Source of the DNA: Psilocybe azurescens
Taxonomy: Eukaryota > Basidiomycota > Agaricomycetes > Agaricales > Agrocybaceae
Assembly: GCA_023853785.1 (NCBI GenBank)
Contig: JAJIRX010000973.1
Span: 1-64,000, forward strand
Direction of reading: 5' to 3'
DNA: 64,000 bases
The notes beneath the pieces are model-generated. The model did no database searches, had not been told where the DNA came from, and saw only the letters and a list, made by a program, of their open reading frames with translations. Below, one piece after another: positions 17,438-54,800 of the stretch (positions are counted from its first letter, which is position 1; every line of letters starts with the position of its first letter). The position numbers were made by a program, and so were the translations under genes.

Positions 17438-20400
17438 CTACTGCACCTCCATCATCTCCTCAGGCAGAGCACTCGCGCCTCCTCCGCCTTCTTGCTCCTT
17501 CCGCACGGCCTGGACGACGTCGTCCACGTGGAAGAGCATGCGCGCAGCCTGTGTCAGGTATCAGAACTGAGTAAGTAAAGAAGAGCAACATAATATCAAA
17601 AACGGACCTTGATGACAGTTTTAAGGGTTTGGGTCTGGAGAGGGAAGCAGAAGAAGCATAAGATCAGACGCAGACCCCGTGATCAGCTCGAGTGAGTACG
17701 TACCTTGACACTAGCGGACTCGTACAGCCCATACTCCTTCATATCGACAATCTTGCCCGTATCGCCATTCACACCCCACGAGTGTTCTCCATTCGCACGC
17801 TTAGCCTATCTCCCCCCCTAAAAAAACACCCGCATTTGGTTCAGCACCAGAACAACAAAAATGACAAAAAGAAAAGAAAAAAAAACGCACCCTCAACTCC
17901 ATCAACACCCTAATAACATTCCCGCCCGAGTTCTGGATCAGCACCCAGGGGATAACCTCCATCGCGTCCACGACTGCTCTATAAGGCCACGTCTCCACGC
18001 CCTGCACCGGCGCTTCTCTGCGGGCCTTCTGCTGCAGCCCGACACTAATGGCCATCTCGGGGCGCTGCCGCCGCCCGGGCAGAAGGTGGGTTGAAGAAGG
18101 CGTTGCAGGCGACGGACATGGCGTCTGCGAGGTTGCGGTCGATCTCATTCAGGATGTGTTTGGAGGGCCCGCGGAGGAGGATGGTGCATGCTTTTGGAGC
18201 GCGGCATTCGGTAAGGAATGTGAAGTATCTGATTGATGGAGGATGAGGAGAGGGAGATGGTTGGTTAGTTCAGAGTTGGGAGCGAGATTCATGAAGAAAC
18301 AGATAAGAAAAAAGGGTAAAACACAAAGAAGATAGTAGTGCGAATCAAACGAATACAAAAGAAAAAAACAAGTCCGAAACGCTGTAACCCGTAATTCCAA
18401 ATGGACGAACGATGAACGACGAAAGACGCACGCACGCACGTACGCTCGCTTGCACGTGCAAGGGGAAAAACAAGACAAAACAAAACGAAGACACCAGCCC
18501 CAGCTAGTGCAGCCAAAGAAAAAGAAAAAAAGTGAAATAGGATTCTGTTCCCTTCCGCCCCAAACAGAAGCGCCAACAAAAGCAACAAGTGAAAAGCGAA
18601 AGAGAGAGAGAAAGCGCCAAAGAGGAAAAGGATAAAAATAAAAATAAGACTCAGCTAGCCGCACCAACAAACAAGCAAACAAGCAAACCCAAACCAAATG
18701 AGAAAAAAAAAGAGAACACAGTCGCGAGCGCAGACGCAGACTCAGAAAAGATACGGACATGGACATGGACAGAGAGAATCATGACTGTTCGTAATGAACC
18801 GAACTGAAGAGAACTGAAAAGAAAAGAAAAGAGAAAGAAAACTTTGATCGGACGGGAACCGAACCAGAACCAGGGACAGAGAAGATGCAAAAAAGGATGG
18901 GAATAGGAATGGGAATGGGCCAGCAAGATTCCAGTCCCAATTCCAATTTCATCAATCCATCGAGGGGATAGATGGTCATGGTCAAATGGTCAAGAGCCAG
19001 CACCAGCACCAGAGGAAAGAAAAGGGCAGGGCCGGCGGGCACAGAACGAACGGCGCACGACTGTGCAAAATAAAATAATAATAAAACAGCACGAAAAGAA
19101 GCAAAAACAAGAACAGAACAGAACAGAAGAAAGAAAAACATTCCACGCGGGCGTCCAAGTTCAAGTCCAAAAAAAAAGAATCATATCACGGGTGTACATG
19201 CACGCACGCATGCCGAAAGACAGAGCGAGAGCGTGAGGAAAAAGACGCAGACTCAGACACTGGAACAAACGAACCAACAACGGGACACAAAAAAACAGCA
19301 CAAAACGAAATGAAGGAAAAATATAACGAGAACAGGAAAAAAAAGAAAAAAATCTACGCGAACGTCCAAGAATCCAATCCCAAGTCCAAGTCCCAAAAAA
19401 AATCGCATCGCTGGAGGTGTGCACGTACGTATGTCAAAGGACAGAAGACACAGCGAGGGTGCAGGCGAGAAAATATACAGAGAAAACAGACACAGAACGC
19501 AGAACGCAGAACGCAGACGCAGGCACTCACACCGATCACCAAGAATCAAACCAAGAGAAAGAAAAAAAAGAGAAAGTAGAAGACAGTGAAAAACACAAGG
19601 CAAGGCAAGGCAAAGCAGAGCAAGGTAAAGCAGCCCAACCCAGCCCAACAAATGGAAAGCAAAAAAAAAACCCCGTAAAAAGACCCAAAACCACCCCAAA
19701 AAGAAAAAAAGAACAAAAAAACACTTAACACTCACTCATCCCCAATCTTCCCCACCCTAAACAGCCCACAACCCATCCCAACATCGCTCTCCCTGATATC
19801 CTCTATGCGGTTCACGATCGTCGCGCCGACCGCTGACCGCGATGCGGTTGTTGTCCGACTTGGCGCGAGGTCTGTGGGGGACGGGAGATGTTATTATTAG
19901 TATTAACATAAACACAGGAACTAAGGTGAAGCGGGAAAGGGGAGAGGGAAAAGGAGCAAAAGAACACACACACACACCCTTCTCCGTAACAACAAAATTC
20001 GGCTTCAAACGCTCACACAGCCCCCTTACCTGCTCCTCCTCGGTCTCCTGCACGCGCACGCAGTTGCCCTCCTCGCTGAACTCCATGTTCGTCCGCAACT
20101 CGCCCATCTTATACTCCAGGGGGCAGTCGAGCAGGGTGATGCGCGGGTGCGTGATGTCTGTGTTGAGGAACAGGCCGGGGAGCACCCGCGATTCCTTGAT
20201 TTCACCGTTGGGGATCTTCTTGACGCACGCTGGTATCTCTTTATACCAACACTCGTTTGCCTATGCACATGGGCCTGCCTGCCTCCGCCCGCGCCCCTGC
20301 CCCCGCCGCAGCTGCAGCCCCTGGAGCGACACCATGGCTGTGGCTCACAGTGACAGTGCACACTGCCTGCAACGCGAGTGTAAACATCATATCTGACTAG

Positions 20401-21110
20401 CACATGAAAAACTTGGTGCCGTTGCATGTCTTGATGAGCACGAGCATCTGAGCGTCGTTGTTGGTGTGGATGGGGACGGAGATGCGCTGGACGATGGAGA
20501 GCACTTCGGGAGGGCTTTGTTGTAGGCGGAGATGATGACGACGGGGCGGATGTCCCGCTCAAGTTGGGAGAGGGATTTCACGAGGATCTCGCCCGCTGGG
20601 TGGGGTAAAGGTAGAAGTGGTAGGGAAGAAGTGGTAAGGAAGAAGAAAAGGAGGGAGGAAAGCGGGAGGACTGCGCACCCAGGATGATGACGCTTCGTGG
20701 TGCCGTCGGGCGCACTCCCTCGTCCCGGGTCCTGCTGAGTTCGATCATATTCTTCGCGGCAGGGTGCGCTACGTCGATCTCGCTGCAGGATTGCGTTGCC
20801 GTCGTTCGTCAGCCTGCATGCATGAGGAAGAGGAGGGAGAACAGGATCGAGATTGGGATTAGAAACAGAATTAGGTCAGGCAATTAGAATCAGAATCATG
20901 GCATCGAGATGATGAAAAAGAGGGGGATGACGCACAGGATACTGCCCATGAGATAGAGGATGATTTTGAACAGCCACGCGTCACGTCCTGATCATATCTG
21001 CGACCGTCTGTCTGCACATTGCCATCGCCATCGCAATCTTTAGTGGTGCTGATCTAGGATAATAGGCAGAGAAGCGCACCTTTGCAGCAGTGATGTTGGA
21101 TATCTGTCCC
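17438..21110 (-). pseudogene. CCT3: CCT3 (TCP-1 gamma chaperonin subunit), full-length but broken copy
   Basis: Functional CCT3 is the gamma subunit of the cytosolic CCT/TRiC ring that folds actin and tubulin. This copy keeps the introns and runs from GQISNITAAK (about 21110-21080) through IILYLMGSIL, LTNDGNAIL, SLSQLERDIRPVVIISAYNK, NTDITHPRITLLDCPLEYK, VVTEKGV, DNNRIA, IEDIRESDVGMGCGLFRVGK, FLTECRAPKACTILLRGPSK, VETWPYRAVVDAMEVIP, NGDTGKIVDMKEYGLYESAS and DDVVQAVRK, to the stop at 17438. Lesions: frameshifts near 20985, 20785, 20715, 20510, 20235, 19835 and 18075, an in-frame TAG near 20397 (MC*SDMM), and loss of about ten residues between DITHP and RITLL. No start codon was found. Retained introns mean duplication by DNA, not by retrotransposition. 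An intact CCT3 should exist elsewhere. Confidence 0.88.
18229..19735 (-). repeat. 1,507-bp strand-asymmetric intron of the CCT3 copy with degenerate tandem repeats
   Basis: The donor GATGA|GTGAGT (exon edge 19736) and acceptor ATCAG|ATACTTC (exon edge 18228) join codons to give GDEYFTF, as in CCT3, so the limits are secure. Inside, the plus strand is nearly all A/G/C with long purine runs. Units of about 200 bp recur: compare the cgtccaag...caagtcc blocks at about 19150 and 19357 and the acagcac blocks at about 19087 and 19295. All long open frames here are low-complexity artefacts. Confidence 0.8.
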
Positions 21111-24476: not shown

Positions 24477-24876
24477 AGAGCACCTGTGCGTCGACGGCGG
24501 TGTCGATGGGAACGGAGATGCACTAGATGATGAAGAGCGCCTCGGCGAGAGCTTTATTGTAGGCGGAGACGATGTCGACGGGGTGGATGTCCCGCTCGAG
24601 CTGGGACAGGGATTGGGCGGGGATCTCGCCGGCTGGGTCGTGTAGTGGGAGAGAGGGGAAGGGGAAGGAACGCGGAGAGAGGGACGGAGAGAGAGAGAGG
24701 GAGGTGGGTGAGAAAGAGAACAAACAAGACAGAGGACTGTGCGCCGAGGATGATGATATTGGTCGTGCCATCGCCGCACTCCTCGTCCTGGGTCCTGCTC
24801 AGCTCGATCATGTTCTTCGCGGTGGAGTGCGCCACGTCAATCTTGCCCAAGATCGCGTTGCCATCGTTCGTCAGTC
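24477..24876 (-). pseudogene. CCT3: CCT3 two-exon fragment C
   Basis: Two CCT3 exons with the intron between them: LTNDGNAILGKIDVAHSTAK and NMIELSRTQDEECGDGTTNI, then GEIPAQSLSQLERDIHPVDI and VSAYNKALAEALFII. An in-frame TAG follows directly (about 24523), after which the frame continues CISVPIDTAVDAQVLS. The exon then passes into sequence of the unrelated gene at 24007-24393. Confidence 0.82.
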
Positions 24877-25800
24877 TGCATTCATCAGGGAGACGGGAGT
24901 CAACTATCTTCAACGTCGTGTCTGCGACTGCTCGTCAAAGAGGGAAGATTTGCACGCCGCTACGCAGTCCCGGAGCTCTGCGTGGCTATGCTGCGGAAGT
25001 ATGTCAGTAAGTACAAGTGCCGGTAGCCAAAGAGCGGAAGGGAAAGGAAGGGAATAAGGAAGCGTGGGCGGCGGGAAGAAGTGGATGCGGGGTGGATGTA
25101 AACTATTAATGAGTATATGCGTGAATTTATGCGTGTGCACGATGAGAATGGGTGAAAGTGATAATGAAATGGGGATGTGACAGGAATGAGGATGCGAAGG
25201 ACGAATGATAGTGCACCGTGACTTACGAACGGGAGAGGGAGGACTGGTCCTGTTGGGTGGAAGGCTATGGTGTTGTGTTGTAGGGTACGATGAATGATAA
25301 ATCGGACATCAAGTTGTCAAGCGTTGTGAAGTATCGTATAAAAACAGAACCAGGAAATGGGTGTCGGACACAAGTGCCTCGCGCTGAGGTGGGTCAAAGC
25401 TGCAGCTGACATTGACATTGCAGGGACCGCGCTGTCTGTGGTTCCAGATATTTTGAACCCGGTGGCACCAGCTCTGGGGTTATACCACTACACCCTTGGC
25501 CACCTCGATCGCGATTGGGCATTCCACAATCGCAACAGCCACTCCATCCTCATCCTCTTTCACCGGAACCGGACTGAGTAGACTTTTGTGCACACGAGGT
25601 TGGGTCTTCGTTCAGGATCTGGCCTGCGAGGGCTCATACTTGTACTAAGCATCAGGTTCGACCCGGGAGGGTGAAGAACGTTTCGGACGGAAAGAGCAAT
25701 CAACTGAGGGGTTTGGAATCAGATGACATAAGTTTGTGACTTGGCCTCGGTCTACGCACGCTCACAATCACGAGCACTTGGAGGGCCCGAGCACGTGGAC
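24699..25800. repeat. Segmental duplication, copy 2 of 2
   Basis: Direct-orientation partner of 22403-23560, offset by about 2.3 kb, with scattered substitutions and small indels. It starts within the CT-rich CCT3 intron and ends just after cacaatcacgagcacttgga (about 25780). It contains CCT3 exon TNDGNAIL in a better-preserved form than copy 1. Confidence 0.8.
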
Positions 25801-31216: not shown

Positions 31217-34200
31217 ATGTCCGCTAATCGTCAAAATCCTGCCACTAAAGGGTCGATAGTTGGCAAAGCATTGGGTAATAAACTCCAGAAATCCATGGAA
31301 TTTGGATCGTCGAGTGCCGTGGCAATCAGCGCTGTCGAGGCTGTAAAACTCCGAGCCAAATACACCCATTTCCGCATTCTTGTTATTGGGAGGGCAAACG
31401 CTGGCAAAACAACTCTGTTAAAGCGAGTATGTAACACAACTGTGGAGCCGTCCATATATGACGATGGTAAAAATCTTGTGAGCTAGACTGCCCTCTGCTG
31501 CATGTCAGATATTTATCATTTTCCAACAGCTCATACCGACTTCGAGGGTAATATTCCTCCGTAATTTCTGCATCTCCCCAGATGAAATGACTGACTTTTG
31601 ACATTGTAGCGTGGAACCCATAACATACACCGAGCATTCACATTTAAGAGTAACCCAAAGTTCATCTTCCACGACTCAGCTGGTTTCCGAGGCAGGGGGT
31701 GAAGAGGAACTACAGGCTGTGATGGATTTCATTGAGAAGAGTTCAAAGGCTGTTGAAGTTAATAACCAAATTCATATCATATGGTATGTGTTTCTGTTTT
31801 TTTTTAATTATTATTGGAAGTACCTTAAATTATAATGGGTGTAGGTTTTGCTTTGACCCAGATGTATCACGCCCCTTATTGGACTTGGAAGTTAAATTTT
31901 TCAATGAAAATCGTAAATGGAACGGTAAGCTTGTGACATACATTTCAATGGTAATGAGAACTCACATAAAACCAGTGCCAGTTGTGGCAATCTTTATGAA
32001 ATTTGATGATCTCATCAGCCAGGTTTGGAACAGAAATAAAACTCCAGAGTGGAATACTATGCATGCTTTGGACACTTTGCAGAAGGAGTTTGAGCAACCA
32101 CTTAGAAGCTACAAATTTCCACCACAGGCTTATGTTCGGCTTGAGGGTAAGTTATTTATAATTCACTAAACCAATTTAGAGACTTAATATCATGAATAGC
32201 ACTTGATAACAATGAAAGTGATCATCAAAAACAAATTGAAGAGCTAATGAAACAAACAGCAGCATCCATTGATGATATTACTCTCAAAATGCTGTTTGTT
32301 ACTGTCCAACAGAATAATTTAAAAATATGCATTGAATGTGCAATAAAGAAGTATGTTATTAGCTTTTTATTTCTATTTTGCTTATTATGTTCTTTAGCAT
32401 TGTGTATCAAAATATAGTAAAAATGGTATGTTGGTTAAAAAGTACTACATCTTTTAAGTGGTTAATTTATATAAAGGATCAATTGATATCATCTGCCATG
32501 ATTTGGTTTCCAAATTACTTTTATGTATGTGAATATGCTGCTGCACTATAAAAAACAGTAACTGACATCAAATTAGAATGCAAGCACTGTTTATTTATTT
32601 GTATTTGATAGTCATATTGATAAATAGATAGCATGTGAGTATAAAATTTGGAACTTTGAATAATGTGCTAACAGCATTATATAAGAATTATGGGGTGAGA
32701 ATCCAGCTAGTAGAGATATGATTTCATGCTCAATTGTAATTGCTGATATTTTCTGCATCAAATTTTATTTAGCAAGTAGGTTGTGTGCACTGTTTGCAAT
32801 TAATTGAAATTGCTGATATTTTTGCATTAAATTTTATTTAGGATGTAAGTTGTGTGCATTGTTTAAAATTGATTCTCATTGCTGATATTTTTTTACATTA
32901 ATTTTTATTTAGTATGTAAGTTGTGTGCACTGTTTGGGATTGATTACAATTACTGATATTTTCTGCACTAATTTTATTTAGATTGTGAGTTGGGTGCACT
33001 GTTTGCAATAGATTGCAAATGTTGATATTTTCTGCATTAAATTTTATTCAGGATGTAAGCCATATATACTGTTTGTAATTGAATGTAATTGCTAATAGTT
33101 TCTGCATTAATTTTTATCCAGTATGTAAGTTGTGTACACTATTTGTGTTTAATTGCAATTAATAGTATTTTCTCATTAAATTGAATTCAGAATGTGGGTT
33201 ATGTGCACTATTTGTAATTGATTGAAATTGCTAATATGTTCTGCATCAATTTTTGTTTAGGCGTAAGTTGTATGTATAATTTGTGATTGACAATGGCTGA
33301 TATTTTTAATGTTGCTCTTTATTTAGAATGTAAGTTGTGCATACTATTTATGATTGATGGCAATTGGTAATATTTTTGGTATTGATTCTATTTTAGGCTG
33401 TAAATTGTGTGCACTATTTGTGATAAATTGCAATTGCTGATATTTTCTGTATCAATTTTTGCTCAGTATGTAAGTTGTGTGCACTATTTGTGATTGATTA
33501 CAATTACTGATATTTTTGTATCAATTTGTATTTAGAATGTAGGTTCCATGCATTATTTGTGATTAATCACAATTGCTAATATTTTAATGTCACTCTTTAT
33601 TTAGCTTGTAAGTTGTGTGCACTATTTGTAATTAATTGAAATGGCTGATATTTTCTGCATTGATTCTATTTTAGGCTGTAAGTTGTGTGCATTATTTGTA
33701 ATTGAGTGTGATTGCTAATATTTTTAACATCAATCTTTATACAGCGTGTAAGTTATGTGCACTTTTTGTAATTAACTGAAATTGCTGATATTTCAATGTT
33801 ACCCTTTATTTAGCTTGTAAGTTGTGTGCACTGTTTTGTGATTAATTGAAATTGCTAATGTTTTAATGTCACCTTTTATTTAGCTTGTAAGTCGTGTGCA
33901 TTATTTGCAGTTCATTACAATTGCTAATATTTTTACATCAATCTTTATTTAGCGTGTAAGTTGTGTGTATTATTTGTGATTGATTGCAACTGTTGACATT
34001 TTTGCTTCAATTTTTATTCAGCACGTAAGTTGTATGCACTATTTGTGATAGGTTGCAATTGTGTATATTATTTGCTTCAATCTTTATTCAGCGTGTAAGT
34101 TGTGCACCATATTTTTGATTGATTGCAATTGTTGATATTTCTGTATCAATTTTTATTCAGCGTGTAAGTTGTGTGTATTTTTTATGATTGATTACAATTA

Positions 34201-35050
34201 TCAATCTTTTCTGCATCAATTTTTATTTAGTATGTAAGTTGTGTGCACTATTTAGAATTTATTGCAATGACTAACATTTTCTGTATTAAATTTTATATAG
34301 GATGTAAGTTGTGTATACTATTTGTGATTGATTAGAATTGTTGATATTTTGTGCATCAATTTCATTTTAGACTGTAAGTTGTGTGCGCTATTTGTGATTG
34401 ATTGCAATTGCTAACATTTTCTGCATCAAATTTTATTTAGCAAGTAAGTTGTGTGCACTATTTATAATTGATTGTGAATACTGATATGTTAAATGTGATC
34501 TTTTGTTTAGCTTGTAAGTTATGTTTGCTTTATATCTGATTGGATGCTGAATGTTTATTTTTTTTAATATTGCTTGTGTTTTATAGATTCCCACATTCAA
34601 AAAATTATCAATGCACAATTCTCTGTAAGATTTTGTTTAAATTTTGCAATTGCATTATAAAACTCTATTATTCATAAAATATTATTGTTATAGGAGCCAT
34701 CCTTAAATGTTTTTGCAGGTTGGGATATAGCCATCCTGTTTCTGCAGTTTGTATATCTCATTATGTTTGCTGTAGCCATTCTTATCTCATTTGAATATTC
34801 CTTCTGGATTACTGGGACTGATAATGATCTTGTTGACAAATTTTTCATAGCTTGGACCACTTATCTGAAAGATAACCGTGGACAGGTTGATCAATTTTTA
34901 AATGACTATCAATCATCTCTCCAGCAGGGTGACTGGATTGCAAAACATTATCACCCATCTGATGATGAGATTGTGAAATTTCAAAGCATAGTTCTTCAAA
35001 ACATACTTTGTGAGCCAATTTCTTTGTCTTTTTTAAATTATTATTATTGA
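31217..35050 (+). CDS. P-loop GTPase with C-terminal membrane segment (Agaricomycete G-domain family), one frameshift
   Basis: The ATG at 31217 gives MSANRQNPATKGSIVGK, then FRILVIGRANAGKTTLLKR (Walker A/G1). Short exons follow: LIPTSR, then HRAFTFKSNPKFIFHDSAGF (G3-like DSAG), EAGGEEELQAVMDFIEKSSK, FCFDPDVSRPLLDLEVKFFN, VPVVAIFMKFDDLISQVW (G4-position KFDD), WNTMHALDTLQKEFEQPLRS, ALDNNESDHQKQIEELMKQ and NLKICIECAIKNIVYQ. After the intron array come DSHIQKIINAQFS, EPSLNVFAGWDIAILFLQF, a transmembrane stretch (VYLIMFAVAILISFEYSFWI) and a C-terminal tail. The joint of DSAGF to EAGG needs removal of one C at about 31684, so there is either a real frameshift or an error. The exact 3' end is uncertain; a GTGAGC donor near 35009 could lead to another exon. 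Confidence 0.8.
32576..34586 (+). repeat. Tandem array of about 26 intron-like 70-bp units separated by 3-nt micro-exons
   Basis: After the exon ending IVKM (about 32427), two degenerate units (near 32576 and 32632) lead into a regular array. AG acceptors end at 32772, 32841, 32912, 32981, 33051, 33121, 33190, 33260, 33326, 33396, 33466, 33535, 33604, 33674, 33744, 33813, 33883, 33952, 34021, 34091, 34160, 34230, 34300, 34370, 34440, 34510 and 34586. After each of the first 26 come three bases (two at 33261-33262) and then a GT donor. By eye, 21 of 26 donors are GTAAG (others GTAGG, GTGAG, GTGGG, GTAAA), all 27 acceptors are YAG, and most units carry a CTRAY-like branch site (gctgat, gctaat, ctaac) 25-30 nt before the AG. 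The coding exon resumes at 34587. Whether the units are spliced singly or skipped as one intron cannot be told from DNA. Confidence 0.88.
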
Positions 35051-35758
35051 TATTATATACACCACTGTAGCTCACTCTAACACCACCACTTGATATGATG
35101 ATTAGAAGTTCAATCATCCTTTTATGCATTCAAATATCAGTTCAATATACATATATAAATACAATACTATGGCTTCAAATCTTGTTATGCTGCTGCCATG
35201 AGTGTTGAAAGCAGATGTAAATATAGAGACAAATTTTGAGCTATCCATTAACATTCATGGTACTGAATATTCAGTGGTGACAAAATGACTCACAAAAACA
35301 AAAAAATCTATCAATATGTTGATGAGAGAACTAGCATAGCATAATACTCAGACATGTAAACTACTGACCTCTACACACAATATAAACAAGATATATATAA
35401 CTCAATAAATTGAATCAAGTAAAACCAACTTAATGCCATGTCTATAAAAATTTCTTGATAGAATCTGATACTGTATACCATGTCCCAAAGAGCAGTTACT
35501 ACATATTTTAATCTCAAATAATAAAACAATCTGAAGATGACATGTCAAAGATAAATAGAATAAAGGACTAATAATCAATAAACAGTTGAATAACACAATA
35601 ATCTTGAGAATCAAAAATCTCCATCAACAAATGAAAGTGCAATGCATATGACTACAGAAATTATAAAAACACAACAATTTGTATGGGGACATCAGCACTT
35701 TATACCTAATATGAAATATTCATTAATTTAACTATAATGCCATAGCAGGATGCTCATA
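35051..35758. other. AT-rich intergenic, nothing recognised
   Basis: AT-rich and CpG-poor, with no recognisable exon or repeat structure before the Tc1 element at 35759. Confidence 0.5.
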
Positions 35759-37230
35759 CAGTGAGTGACAAAACTGTTCAAATGATTTTTGAAGTTGGAC
35801 TGTTTCTTGAACAACTTAAGAAAAACTCAACCAAACAAGTTCAAACTTTACACAGCGGTAGAGTATTATGTGACTAACATGTTCTAATTTATTTTATTAC
35901 GTAATCTTAATTCCTTTACACACTATTAATATTTTACTGGCACAAATCCATTTGAACAGTTTTGTCCCTCTCATGTTATACCACAGTATTCTAATATTCT
36001 AGTACTTAGTATAGCCTCATTTTGTCTGTAATACAGCCTGAACCCTTACTCTGCAATTCCAGATGCTGGCCTATCATACTCTCCAAGTCTAGTTTTGAGG
36101 GTGATGCCAAAGGTGTTTAATTGGATTGAGGTCTGCTGATTGAGGGGCCACTTCATAACTTCTAACCCACTTTCTTGGAACCAGTTCTGGGCCTTCCTGC
36201 TCTTGTGTTTGGGGTCATTGTCCTGCTGAAAAGTATATCTGTGTGCTTTTTCTGTAATATCTAATTGATTCTTGAATTTTATCATCCAGAATGCTGACAA
36301 AAAGATCAGCATCTATTCTCCCATCAATCTTGGTTGCATATCCAGGTCCTTCCCAGATTATACAACCCCAGATGATCAGAGAACCTCCTCCTAACTTGAC
36401 TGTCACCTGTACCAGCCTGTCACTCAACCCTCTCCTGGCTTTTTCCACACCCATTTCTTCCCATCTCACCCCAAACAATTGATTTTGGTCTCATCTGACC
36501 ATATAACTCTCTTCCAGTCCTCCACTGTCCAGTCTTTGTGTGCTTCTGCAAAGTCCATTCTAAGCCCTCCATGTCTTTTGGAGAGAAAAATCATTTTGTT
36601 TGGTTACAGCCTTCATCCCAGTGCCCCTGAGTGCTCTCCATACAGTCTTCACAGAAAAGGATATGTTGGTCATGTTTTGCAGGGTTTTGGCAACCTCAGT
36701 GGCATTTTCAGCCTTCTGAGAAGTGATAAGATGAATAGCATATTGGGTATCAGCAGATGAAAGCTTGCATGGACAGCCTCCAGTGGATTTGGAAAGTGTT
36801 GAGCAATGTTTGGAGCAAATATTGGATATAGAACCAACACTTATACCAGTAGTAGTGGAGATAGCATGCCTTGACTGGCTTTTGTCAAGCAGTTCAAGAA
36901 CACGGTTGTGTTGAGCAGGAGTGAGTGATTGCATGAGTGTTTGAGTAGAATTTAATGTGGGGAGTAGCATAATCTTGGACACAGAGTATATATACAAATT
37001 TTGAATAAGTCATATGATTTTATTTGTATTTATTTGCTTTGATTAAACAAAGTCACATGCTTGGTATACAAAAGGAACAAAACTGTTCAAATAGGCTTGT
37101 GCCAGTAAAATATTAGTCACATGATACTTTACCACTGTGTAAAGTTTGAATTTGTTTGGTGGAGTTTTTTTGAGTTATTCAAGAAACAGTCCAACTTCAA
37201 AAATCATTTGAACAGTTTTGTCCCTCACTG
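35759..37230. mobile_element. Tc1/mariner-type transposon T1, 1,472 bp
   Basis: The left end is CAGTGAGTGACAAAACTGTT, and the right end is its inverse ending TTTTGTCCCTCACTG. TA target duplications lie at 35757-35758 and 37231-37232. Each end is itself a hairpin: an inverted copy of the terminus lies at about 35950-35976 and another at about 37072-37095. Confidence 0.92.
36046..36931 (-). pseudogene. Broken Tc1/mariner transposase of T1
   Basis: The start is MQSLTPAQHNRVLELLDKSQ, followed by an HTH region (ISTTTGISVGSISNI; STGGCPCKLS). The catalytic core follows with WSDETKI-type, IIWGCI and QQDNDPKH blocks. The frame is broken between the HTH part and the core. At the third catalytic block the sequence shifts frame, and in the other frame it reads APQSADLNPIKH, with Lys where the family has the catalytic Glu. 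It cannot encode an active DDE enzyme. Confidence 0.85.
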
Positions 37231-44974: not shown

Positions 44975-46587
44975 CAGTAGCTCAAAAACTGTCCCAATGT
45001 TTGGCACTTTCTCACTAATTGTTTAATAACTTGTGAAATAAATTATGTAAAAGTCTGCAAATATTATATGTTATAATTTAACATGTGACTAACATATTTC
45101 TCACCAAGGTCACATGATTTTAACAAAAACTGATTAAGTAATGGAATTTACAAAATAATAAAACATTGGGACAGTTTTTTGACTCTCTATCTAGTACTTA
45201 GTATGGCCTCCCTTTGCCTTAATAACAGCCTCCATTCTTCTTGGCATGCTTTCTATAAGCCTTTGGCATGTTTCTGAAGGTATTTCAGTCCATTCCTTTG
45301 CCAATCTCTCCCACAATTCAAATGCTCCTTTGGGTGGTGTCTCATAGGTGTTCATTTGCCTTTTGAGGTAAAACCCAAAGGTGTTCAATGGGGTTGAGAT
45401 CAGGGGATTGGGGTGGCCACTCCATAACTTCAACATCATTGGCCAAAACCATTCTTGAGCTTTTTTGGAGCTGTGTTTGAGGTCATTATCCTGCTGAAAA
45501 TCCTTTTCCCCTCTGCCATCTTCAAGTTGTCAAAGCTTTTATCCACCCCATGCTCCAAAATTTCACAGTATTGGTCTGCATTCATCTTCCCCTCAACCTC
45601 AGTCAGTGTTCCAACACTATTCCACCCAATACAACCCTATACCATAAGATTGTTGCCCTCTCCATGCTTGACAGTTGGTAATGTTGTTCTATCTGAGATT
45701 GCTTCACCCTTGGGTTTCCATGTATAGACCCTTCCATCTGAGCCAATCCTGTTGATTTTTGTTTCATCTGACCAGAGTACTCTTTTCCAATCCTCCACAG
45801 TCCAGCCAACATGATTCTGGGCAAATTTTCTGGGCAAATTTTAGGCATTTTTGACAGTGGATAGCCTTGAGGAGGGCCGTTTTGATTTAACAACAGAGCG
45901 GAAGTTGTTTTCTTTGAGGGCATTTCTGACTGTTTGGGCACAAACAGGAGAGGAAATAGCATCATTGATGAAGTGTGTTGTCTGGACAGCATTGTCCAGC
46001 TTTCCTGTTTTGATTTGACAAAAAGGACCTGTTTATCCTTGGGAGTAAGCTTGGAGGGATGTCCACCTTTGTTGTTTTGAGGGTTTTCTTTGTTGGCATC
46101 CACTTCCCTCTTGATTCTTCCAACAGTAGACTTTCCCAAACCAGTTTTAGACTCTATTTGACAAAGAGAATAGCCCTCTTCAAGAAGATTGAGGACAGAA
46201 TTGTACTGAGAAGGTATTGCAGGCTTCATGATGTGGTGGTTAAAGAGAAAGATGGTTGAACTTGAATTCAACATTGCAAATGTGTACAAATAGTGTCACA
46301 TGACCTTGTTTAATTTTCTCACAATTTATACAAAGCAATTTGGCTTTCTACAAGCATGTAAAGCTATTATTTTATAGGGTCAAAAAACTGTCCCAATGTT
46401 TTATTATTTTATAAATTCCATTACTTAATCAGTTTTTGTTAAAATCATGTGACCTTGGTGAGAAATATGTTAGTCACATGTTAAACTATAACATATAATA
46501 TTTGCAGACTTTTACATAATTTATTTCACAAGTTATTAAACAATTAGTGAGAAAGTGCCAAACATTGGGACAGTTTTTGAGCTACTG
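44975..46587. mobile_element. Tc1/mariner-type transposon T2, 1,613 bp
   Basis: The left end is CAGTAGCTCAAAAACTGTCC, and the right end is its inverse, ending GGACAGTTTTTGAGCTACTG. TA target duplications lie at 44973-44974 and 46588-46589. Inner inverted copies of the terminus lie at about 45163-45187 and 46380-46400, so each end can fold on itself. Confidence 0.92.
45191..46229 (-). pseudogene. Broken Tc1/mariner transposase of T2
   Basis: MKPAIPSQYNSVLNLLEEGY, then an HTH (IESKTGLGKSTVGRI) and KGGHPSKLTPKDKQVL. The core has VEDWKRVLWSDETKINRIG, FQQDNDLKH, the WPPQSPDLNPIEHLW block, and the C-terminal ESMPRRMEAVIKAKGGHTKY. All three catalytic positions are present, but they lie in different frames, with an in-frame stop after NNLMV. 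It is therefore inactive. It is the best-preserved transposase in the window. Confidence 0.87.
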
Positions 46588-51870: not shown

Positions 51871-52005
51871 CCTAATAGTCTGGTGTATCTCCTACCCTTC
51901 ACTAGTATAATGTACTAGGTTATTACAGATAACAATCGCAAAAATAAGGGCCTCTGTGTCTCACTATGGATTGTAAGCTCAGAATGGTTTACACCATTTC
52001 ACTGT

Positions 52006-52545
52006 ACAGCTATTGAAACAGATGAATTGCATACCTATTTTACTACTTATTTACCGCATTTTGAATGAACATTCATTCTTGACAGATTGGAGCTGCACAC
52101 CAAATATGTATTGAATGTATTTAAAATTTCTGCAGAAGCGGAGGCCGTACTGTTCTTCAATGGCTGGTGGTGGAGGCCGTACAGCTAGTGAAACAGATGA
52201 ATTCTATACCTATTTTACTACCTATTTACCGCATTTTTGAATGGACATTTATTCTTGAAAGAATGGAGCTGCATGCAAAATATGTATTGAATGTAATTTA
52301 AAATTCTGCAAAAGCGGAGGCCATTCTGTGCTTCAATGGCTGGCGGCGAAGGCTGTGTAGCTTGGAAACTACATAAATTTCTTACCTATTTTACTACCTA
52401 TTTACCAAATTTTTGAATGAACATTTATTCTTGAAAGAATGGAGCTGCATATAAAATATGTACTGAATGTAATTTAAAATTCTGCAAAAGCGCAGGCCAT
52501 TCTGTACTTCAATGTTTAATTGTGGAGTCCATGAAGCCAGGAAAC
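52006..52545. repeat. Three tandem copies of a unit of about 175 bp
   Basis: Copies start near 52006, 52181 and 52356. Each contains acctattttactacttattt-like sequence, ttgaatgaacatttattctt, tggagctgcat, tattgaatgtaatttaaaat and cggaggcc. The sequence is probably satellite-like or a repeated transposon end. Confidence 0.85.
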
Positions 52546-53691: not shown

Positions 53692-54405
53692 CAGTGGCTC
53701 AAAAAACTGTCCCACTTTTGCAACTTTTGTATTAAATTGCTAATAACATGGAAACCCTTCGACTAAAAGGTCTGAAATTAATACATGTTATAGTTGAACA
53801 TGTGACCTTTATAATTGCATCTAAGATCATGCGATTAGGATTGAGCAATAAAATAGACAAAATAATACAAAAGTGGAACAGTTTTTTGACCCTCTATTTA
53901 ATACTTAGTATGACCACCTTTTGCCTTGATAACAGCCTCCGTTCTCCTTGGCATGCTTTCTATGAGATTTTGGTATGTTTCTGGGGGATTTTGTTCCATT
54001 CTGCAGCCAGTCTCTCCCACTATTCAAATACTCCTTTGGGTGGTATTTCATAGATGTTCTTTTGTCTTTGGAGGTGCACCCACAAGTGTTCAATGGGGTT
54101 GATGTCAGGGGATTGAGGAGGCCATTCCATAACTTCAATGTTGTTATCCAAAAACCACTGACTGGCCCCTTTGGAGGTGTGTTTGGGGTCATTATCCTGC
54201 TGAAAAATTCTCTCTCCCTCTGTCATCTCCAAGTTTTCAAAGCTTTCATCCAGTCCATGCTCCAAAATCTCACAGTATTGCACTGCATTCATCTTCCCCT
54301 CAACCTCCACAAGTGTCCCCACCCCATTCCAGCCCATACACCCCCATACCATGAGATTATTCCCTCCTCTATGCTTGACAGTTGGCAGTACTTTACCATG
54401 CCCCA
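53692..54405. mobile_element. Truncated Tc1/mariner-type transposon T3
   Basis: The left end CAGTGGCTCAAAAAACTGTC follows TA (53690-53691) and has an inner inverted copy at about 53869-53893, as in T1, T2 and T4. No right end was found. The sequence passes into decamer-repeat DNA at about 54400. Confidence 0.85.
53905..54400 (-). pseudogene. C-terminal part of a T3 transposase
   Basis: VKHRGGNNLMVWGCMGWNGV, GKMNAVQYCEILEHGLDESF, RIFQQDNDPKHTSKGASQW, VMEWPPQSPDINPIEHLW (second and third catalytic residues), then after a frame change the MPRRMEAV-like end. The N-terminal HTH and first Asp are missing because the element is truncated. It is closest to T2. Confidence 0.85.
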
Positions 54406-54800
54406 CCCATTCCAAATGGAATCAATGGAATCCAGTTAGAGTCCAGATCAATTCCAGTTGGATTCCATTTAATGGTTTCAAATGGAATGGTCTGGAATCA
54501 TGGAATGTGCCCATTCCAACTGGAATCCAAGTTCATTCCAGCTTATTCCATTCTATAGAAAACTGTGTGATTTTCACTAAGTCCAACTTTAAATGTGTAC
54601 TTTACCTCCACCCAGAAGCTCCATGTGGAGTCCACCAACTCCATATAAAAGTGGTGGACTCCAAACAATTCCAGATAGAGTCCAGGTGGAGTCCAGGTGG
54701 ACTCTAAACAAGTTCACTTAAGTCCACCTGGAGTTCAATTAGAATCCACCTGGAATCCAGTTGGAGTTTAATTTCATGAAATAGAATCCAGTTGAATTCC
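54405..54800. repeat. GGAATCC-type decamer repeat
   Basis: Dense 10-11-bp variants of tggaatccagt and tccacctggag alternate on both strands, and many are self-complementary. A copy of the conserved end (cagtactttaccatgcccca) sits at 54391. Confidence 0.75.

Follow-up and report, generated by a model that had tools for sequence, protein, structure and literature searches.

Can a chain of introns that lie only one codon apart be spliced so that every codon reaches the protein? This question is raised by a GTPase gene of the fungus Psilocybe azurescens, located on contig JAJIRX010000973.1 (assembly GCA_023853785.1) in an analysed stretch of 64,000 nucleotides (nt), here called the window. Between positions 32773 and 34513 of the forward (+) strand, which carries all exons of the gene, 26 micro-exons alternate with introns of about 67 nt in a tandem array; 25 of the micro-exons measure 3 nt and the other 2 nt. 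A final array intron occupies 34514-34586. An earlier note on the same DNA had described introns with 3-nt micro-exons between them inside a GTPase gene, and this was borne out; its statement that all spacers are triplets held for 25 of the 26 and failed for one, a lone 2-nt spacer (GC) at 33261-33262, which breaks the frame of the window copy. From comparisons of the sequence across the gene family, we consider it likely that these tandem introns are spliced singly, and that the codons between them are translated as a hypervariable linker in the GTPase.

Splice signals in the array units

The units of the window array are 66-71 nt long, and all 25 full units have retained both GT and AG (25/25 each), in agreement with what had been claimed. 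The mean deviation from the majority base was 17% over 63 intron columns, which falls within the 10-20% previously estimated, and five columns were invariant. A genome search for the unit (70.4 Mb, 937 contigs), which the earlier note had proposed, found further arrays rather than a single one, with at least eight units at 25 loci. The unit core occurs 521 times in the genome at no more than two mismatches. A pattern of three consecutive introns with 3-nt spacers, the intron body being left unspecified, matched 480 times and its reversed control 0 times, which excludes chance as the source of the arrays.

The splice elements were examined by means of a unit profile with its ends placed in the middle of the intron; GT and AG were accordingly no condition of the search (the seed units did carry them). 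A scan of 22 contig stretches and the window (23 loci) yielded 593 units, all of one strand at each locus; 34 units with more than eight gaps were dropped, and 559 near-full units were used for the splice-element statistics. The donor G was present in 557 of 559 units and the T in 555 of 558, the three exceptions being C, i.e. GC donors. With gaps set aside, the two acceptor bases were present in 558/558 and 557/557 units, and the branch-point A inside CTRAY, which lies about 25 nt upstream of AG by the column spacing of the profile, in 557/558. Mean within-array diversity of these columns was 0.000-0.011, against an average of 0.139 over the 56 other columns; columns 1, 69 and 70, at the edges of the profile, were also low in diversity, but often consisted of gaps. 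The proposed alignment of the units, from a search that did not require GT or AG, thus finds GT, AG and the branch A among the least variable columns. This is the opposite of the alignment result that the earlier note had named as refuting its view, and it supports the suggested selection through splicing at every unit. By their GT/GC...AG borders and a CTRAY branch site at a suitable distance, the array introns, with a median length of 67 nt in the parsed arrays, can be assigned to the putative spliceosomal (U2-type) class.

Variability of the triplets

With the addition of four stretches the scan comprised 675 matches, and 624 near-full rows from 27 loci were taken into the analysis of the spacers; at least eight units were found at 25 of these loci, while C211 and C680 contributed two rows and one row. 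Spacer length was exactly 3 nt in 612 of the 624 rows (98%). None of the 612 triplets is a stop codon, consistent with the earlier observation in the window; this is weak evidence, with a stop expectation of only 1.26 among 551 triplets and an absence of stops that is near-automatic for triplets of the form NNT. Bases 1 and 2 of the triplet displayed mean within-array diversities of 0.656 and 0.642 (22 arrays), the two highest of all 70 columns, the next value being 0.363, and in 16 of the 22 arrays both were more diverse than every intron column. The mean diversity of base 3 was 0.071; it was invariant in 12 of the 22 arrays and was a T in 535 of 556 units. The residues encoded by 551 gap-free triplets are chiefly D, A, H, R, L, Y and N. 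Triplets beginning with GT were scarce (7 observed versus 38 expected under base independence), a deficit that would fit competition from any GT adjoining AG as an alternative donor; other pairs of bases were also off expectation (GC, 89 versus 51; CC, 25 versus 48).

Identical introns were found to flank different codons. Locus C157 has 24 units with identical flanking intron columns and six different codons, and C668 has nine such units with seven codons. Pairs of units with identical flanks were alike at bases 1-2 in 151 of 512 cases (0.295, versus 0.246 expected), and adjacent unit pairs in 0.213 of 578 (versus 0.162 by chance). The sister arrays C157, C281, C480 and C861 have one consensus intron in common and differ in their codons. 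In a looser alignment of arrays, runs of codons were kept in order mainly for C136/C387 and C520/C553; an attempt to match single units between arrays by reciprocal best introns produced no usable pairs at the chosen margin.

The gene family and its relatives

Exons of the GTPase family were present in 28 of the 29 stretches examined, the remaining one (L018) lying wholly inside an array. The array sits at the same position of the gene wherever its flanks were seen, and across the family it comprises about 10 to 50 similar small introns with one codon between each. Exon E7, downstream of the array, has 41 matches in the genome at 31 loci; several loci, for example a second C553 locus, a second C539 locus and C579, lie outside the fetched set. 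In the family member C211 no array was detected on the profile scan (two rows). The divergent paralogue C758, 55% identical in a G-domain piece, possesses an array of its own, in which the intron is related but diverged and the codons are of NNA, NNT and NNC types (e.g. CGA, GGA, GAA, CAA, TTT and GTC). As C758 combines its own array with a varied third base, the arrangement is likely to predate the C758 duplication, and T in the third position would not be a general rule.

In two relatives, P0012 and P0031, the MMR_HSR1 domain (PF01926) was found above the Pfam cut-off. The 13 best protein matches to a query joined from the family exons were 55-75% identical, and the best nine of these were all from Psilocybe cyanescens (59-75%). 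Both the PF01926 domain of the relatives and the protein matches place the predicted product with the fungal G-domain (MMR_HSR1) GTPases of the Agaricales. A protein search with a C-terminal query based on the window gave 59 candidates, none of them at E<=10; the equivalent query based on C758 gave two matches, P0121 and P0122.

Exon layout and reading frame

The G domain begins with exons E1 (31217-31477, containing the P-loop 'HFRILVIGRANAGKTT'), E2-3 (31610-31783, with a frame break inside it in the window copy), E4a (31845-31924) and E4b (31976-32146), which form a block at 31217-32146 with introns in between; their borders were modelled on P. cyanescens annotations. It ends in E5 (32200-32350, '...MLFVTVQQNNLKICIECAIK'), located by tblastn to the paralogues, whose ratio of non-synonymous to synonymous substitution rates (dN/dS) was 0.19 (20 loci). 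The following exon, E5b (32398-32524), was placed by an alignment of 20 loci and terminates in 'WFPNYFY', which resembles the 'WFGHCY' of other genera. Its end is in phase 0, and as a possible earlier donor at 32425 is likewise in phase 0, this holds either way; the extended part contains 0 stops in the window copy.

The layout of small exons begins upstream of the point at which the earlier note had started the array. Micro-exon 1, AAT (Asn), followed by a GC donor, is located at 32577-32579 and encodes N or D in 16 of 19 matched loci; micro-exon 2, CAT (His), at 32632-32634, encodes H in 14 of the 19; and a 9-nt micro-exon, AATTATGGG (NYG), at 32686-32694, encodes x-Tyr-x in all 19 and may be compared with the DYG of P0121 and P0122. 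This order of WFPxxxx, codon, codon and 9 nt was matched in 19 of 20 loci. An alternative model with a single pre-array intron of 138-140 nt was dropped when the comparison with P0121 revealed the 9-nt exon.

Downstream of the array, 18 of 20 loci have an E6 of 39 nt that is stop-free and in phase 0 (the search favoured 39 nt, and a separate alignment agrees); E6 measures 38 nt in the window (34587-34624) and was not found in C339. E6 leads in phase 0 into E7 (34694-35009, 'EPSLNVFAGWDIAILFLQFVYLIMFAVAILISFEYSFW...'), which encodes a hydrophobic stretch and the C-terminal domain and is similar to the C-terminus of P0121 and P0122. The dN/dS of E7 was 0.55 (16 loci), compared to 0.74 and 1.04 in its other frames. 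The stop lies in E8 (35071-35093, '..SHSNTTT*'; compare the '..SHSELV' at the end of P0031). Between the two flanks, each parsed array has 15 to 48 micro-exons in succession, almost all of which consist of a single codon; the 9-nt exon, the length of which is a multiple of 3, is left out of these counts.

Two other frames for the triplets were considered and rejected. In an N-T-N reading the NNT triplets would encode only F, L, I, M and V, as in a membrane helix, an idea prompted partly by such a run in P0031; it was ruled out as a general frame by the phases of E5b and E6 (0/0), by the third base of C758, often A or C, and by the mixed linker of P0121 and P0122. A T-N-N reading was ruled out by the TGA that arises wherever a GAT triplet comes after T.

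Two possible acceptors, 25 nt apart, are seen at the start of E7 (34694-34740) in the window and in paralogues. In some paralogues that share a 2-nt deletion (e.g. C139, and C660 at 99.5 kb) E7 is open only from the second or a later AG, and the choice of acceptor may follow the frame.

The linker in intron-free relatives

P0121 and P0122 are JGI proteins on contigs of about 1 kb from which the family introns are missing, and they look like complementary DNA (cDNA)-derived sequences. P0121 contains, in order, WFGHCYWM-NHDYG-KEE, the linker ARGFAFAGFRRFAVGAGAGRFGAGADAF, a 13-residue equivalent of E6, and E7; P0122 follows the same plan, with WFGHCYEYYDYGNKKK and YNVVAAKYGGAYIKAAREYYAAEF, and carries DYG. 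In both, a low-complexity linker of about 25 residues stands in frame to the same C-terminal exons. N and H, which the array family has on two separate 3-nt exons, are contiguous in P0121 (alignment of these short stretches was done by eye). The two linkers and the contiguous NH provide the strongest support for the predicted inclusion and translation of the micro-exons.

Shorter ends were also noted. In C758 (L048, ~924-986 of the reverse complement), retention of the intron after the Tyr micro-exon would result in 'YVGVTMRALDTYLTSGFKGK*', which resembles the way Galerina P0012 (YVGVMIRDLDNFLISNFKGK) and Crassisporium P0013 are annotated to end; this is possibly a conserved alternative short C-terminus formed by intron retention. 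Annotated GTPase relatives from Galerina, Crassisporium, Amanita, Phlegmacium and Lactarius often stop some tens of residues past WFGHCY or WFRHSY, and these early ends suggest unseen micro-exons there too.

Alternative explanations

A number of observations weigh against translation of the arrays. The frame of the window copy is broken at three places (E2-3, 33261 and E6), and for this reason the copy is probably decayed. Only eight of the 16 fully parsed arrays are open to E6, the window being among the eight that are broken, and while seven of the open ones consist of triplets only, C139 is open only by way of five odd spacers. C236 and C500 are possibly parse errors among the broken arrays, as the unit profile found no odd spacer in the 29 rows of each. 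C136, C660 (at 99.5-103 kb) and C668 are regarded as intact members of the family. At least one odd spacer is present in 9 of the 25 loci with at least eight units, and none in the other 16. Stop codons interrupt the extended part of E5b in 14 of the 20 copies, so that many copies would be decayed or splice from a different donor; an open E7 frame of 95 residues or more, starting at some phase-0 AG, was present at 9 of the 20 loci (C668 and C836b require a later AG, and the C500 sequence is cut); and the dN/dS of E6 was only 0.76 (13 codons, 16 loci). In 2 of 22 arrays the third base was more diverse than the average intron column, and in C758 its diversity was 0.562. Indels amounted to 18 counts over the three triplet columns, versus a mean of 4.0 per intron column, and being at least as frequent in the triplets they point to no frame constraint at the level of the unit. 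As to the intron-free relatives, their cDNA nature is deduced from the missing introns, the upstream micro-exons are matched in full by P0121 and only in part by P0122, and the Pfam scan gave no match for either, both of which are fragmentary and begin downstream of the P-loop.

Broken frames in half of the complete arrays and triplet columns without a depletion of indels would suit an untranslated minisatellite, contained in one intron of ~2 kb, with a single splicing event joining E5b (or the 9-nt exon) to E6 and with splice-like motifs inherited from the duplicated intron. Tandem repeats are common in introns. Nevertheless, we regard this explanation as improbable: splice elements are kept at 99-100% across units despite the varying intron body, bases 1-2 of the triplets vary far above that body, which neutrality leaves unexplained, the upstream one-codon micro-exons keep mostly the same residues at many loci, and the linker occupies the same place in the intron-free relatives. 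Conservation of splice sites in every unit could also be accounted for without translation if the repeated sites served recursive splicing, or formed a decoy array by which splicing is slowed or controlled, the triplets being finally removed; the earlier note had put forward such a role within one long intron. Recursive splice sites regenerate a donor directly after AG, whereas here 3 nt separate AG from GT in 612 of 624 cases and GT-initial triplets are few. Because the hypervariable bases 1-2, the phase-0 position of the triplets between coding exons and the in-frame linker of two relatives are left unexplained, this is not the leading explanation, and we give it very little credence. Hardly more credible are introner-like mobile introns inserted side by side, with the triplet as a target-site duplication or random filler. 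Similar or identical introns do occur in many genes here, and introners with target-site duplications of 3-9 bp are described in PMC9860276. Against this stand the restriction to one gene family in 28 of the 29 stretches, the fact that among the roughly 100 pattern matches listed only contigs bearing these arrays appear, and the small excess of neighbours sharing bases 1-2, where a target-site duplication would repeat one triplet; solo copies of the intron may exist elsewhere in the genome.

Predicted splicing and the cause of codon diversity

Single removal of the introns and translation of the codons is the reading that we prefer. Each array intron of ~67 nt would be removed individually, and the single codons would be joined to form a hypervariable linker, ~15 to 50 residues long, that connects the G domain to the hydrophobic segment at the C-terminus. 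That hundreds of introns have retained donor, branch site and acceptor argues for such individual removal, which would leave the triplet in the mRNA. All introns would be removed from one transcript, probably serially, because an exon of 3 nt could hardly be bound from both sides simultaneously, and the linker peptide would be made in P. azurescens itself.

The diversity of the codons may have arisen with or without selection. One scenario, compatible with translation and concerning only the cause of the diversity, is that codon variability is unselected and that the introns are homogenised by an intron-level copying which spares the triplet, either gene conversion in tracts that end within the intron, or reinsertion of the excised intron by reverse splicing followed by reverse transcription, so that old codon diversity would persist between young introns. 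We consider this quite possible, if somewhat short of probable. Codon and intron are nearly uncoupled in units with identical flanks, the four sister arrays have one consensus intron and differing codons, the third triplet position of C758 is highly variable too, and codon runs are kept in order in some pairs of paralogues; the last two points favour homogenisation at the intron level and an older codon diversity. On the other hand, a process sparing the whole triplet would not predict a third base that is mostly T and invariant in 12 of 22 arrays, as though homogenised with the intron, and the fact that this base stays constant in most arrays speaks for selection in favour of amino-acid replacement. 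Variability of the linker may be selected, perhaps for a role in recognition. A further, more doubtful scenario is that the family acts as a generator of diversity by codon cassettes, with one codon per removable, homogenised intron: recombination between identical introns would add, delete or reorder single residues with the reading frame unharmed, and each paralogue would carry its own recognition peptide in a receptor-like linker.

Other features of the window

In 2-kb steps, G+C content falls near 32000 from ~45% to 29% over 32-36 kb, and amounts to 34-43% from there to the end of the window. A strong A-over-T strand asymmetry (AT skew 0.527) was observed at 18001-20000, and a tandem repeat with a period of 176 (2.9 copies) at 52004-52514. 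Two similar stretches, at 20387-20875 and 24554-24934 (minus strand), contain the motif 'LTNDGNAIL', which we take to be that of CCT/TCP-1 chaperonins; they are possibly a duplicated gene or fragments. Open reading frames on the minus strand in the AT-rich half of the window (36560-37009, 45603-46295 and 54020-54421) resemble pieces of Tc1/mariner-type transposases.

Comparison with known systems

If spliced as predicted, 15 to 48 consecutive micro-exons would be present in one message, and such chains would severely test models of splice-site pairing, of exon or intron definition and of minimum exon size. Gene predictors would hardly be able to see exons of one codon, and many annotated relatives from other mushroom genera lose the C-terminal domain soon past 'WFGHCY', the point at which the micro-exons start in the array family. 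Diverse codons uncoupled from near-identical introns provide a natural experiment on intron homogenisation, and possibly on a new way of diversifying a protein residue by residue. A search of the open-access literature, a scope outside which most subscription papers lie, found no description of consecutive one-codon exons.

In the hnwd and other NLR repeat genes of Podospora anserina, selected codons reportedly diverge amid repeats that evolve in concert. Concerted homogenisation of repeats, as described in PMC2873952 and PMC1805685, is shared by the arrays; the hnwd repeat is itself coding (WD40), whereas in the arrays homogenisation affects the introns, and the exonic sequence is limited to the codon between them. 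A single 3-nt exon included in the mRNA is known from Drosophila homothorax (PMC7392893); there it is an isolated, alternatively spliced micro-exon, whereas the arrays form a tandem series whose inclusion is predicted. The presence of many near-identical spliceosomal introns in one genome recalls introners and introner-like elements (PMC9860276), which are known in fungi (PMC4457414). Introners, however, are scattered insertions in many genes, whereas in the stretches examined the array introns follow one another directly, with a single codon between them, at one site in a single gene family.

The closest likeness is to the micro-exon genes (MEGs) of Schistosoma mansoni, for which PMC10526429 describes a multigene family whose coding sequence is divided into strings of very small exons, most of them with lengths divisible by 3; the products vary, and gene prediction copes badly with the family. 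The same paper gives a MEG exon length of mostly 15 bp (a range of 3-81 bp according to its abstract and of 6-81 bp according to its main text), introns of 0.1-5 kb and secreted proteins. Like MEGs, the arrays have consecutive, very short exons that are multiples of 3 nt, in phase and part of a multigene family; unlike them, they have exons of one codon, introns of ~67 nt copied from each other, and a GTPase with a hydrophobic C-terminus as their product. On the predicted splicing, the array would be an extreme new variant of micro-exon gene architecture, outside the MEG families of trematodes.

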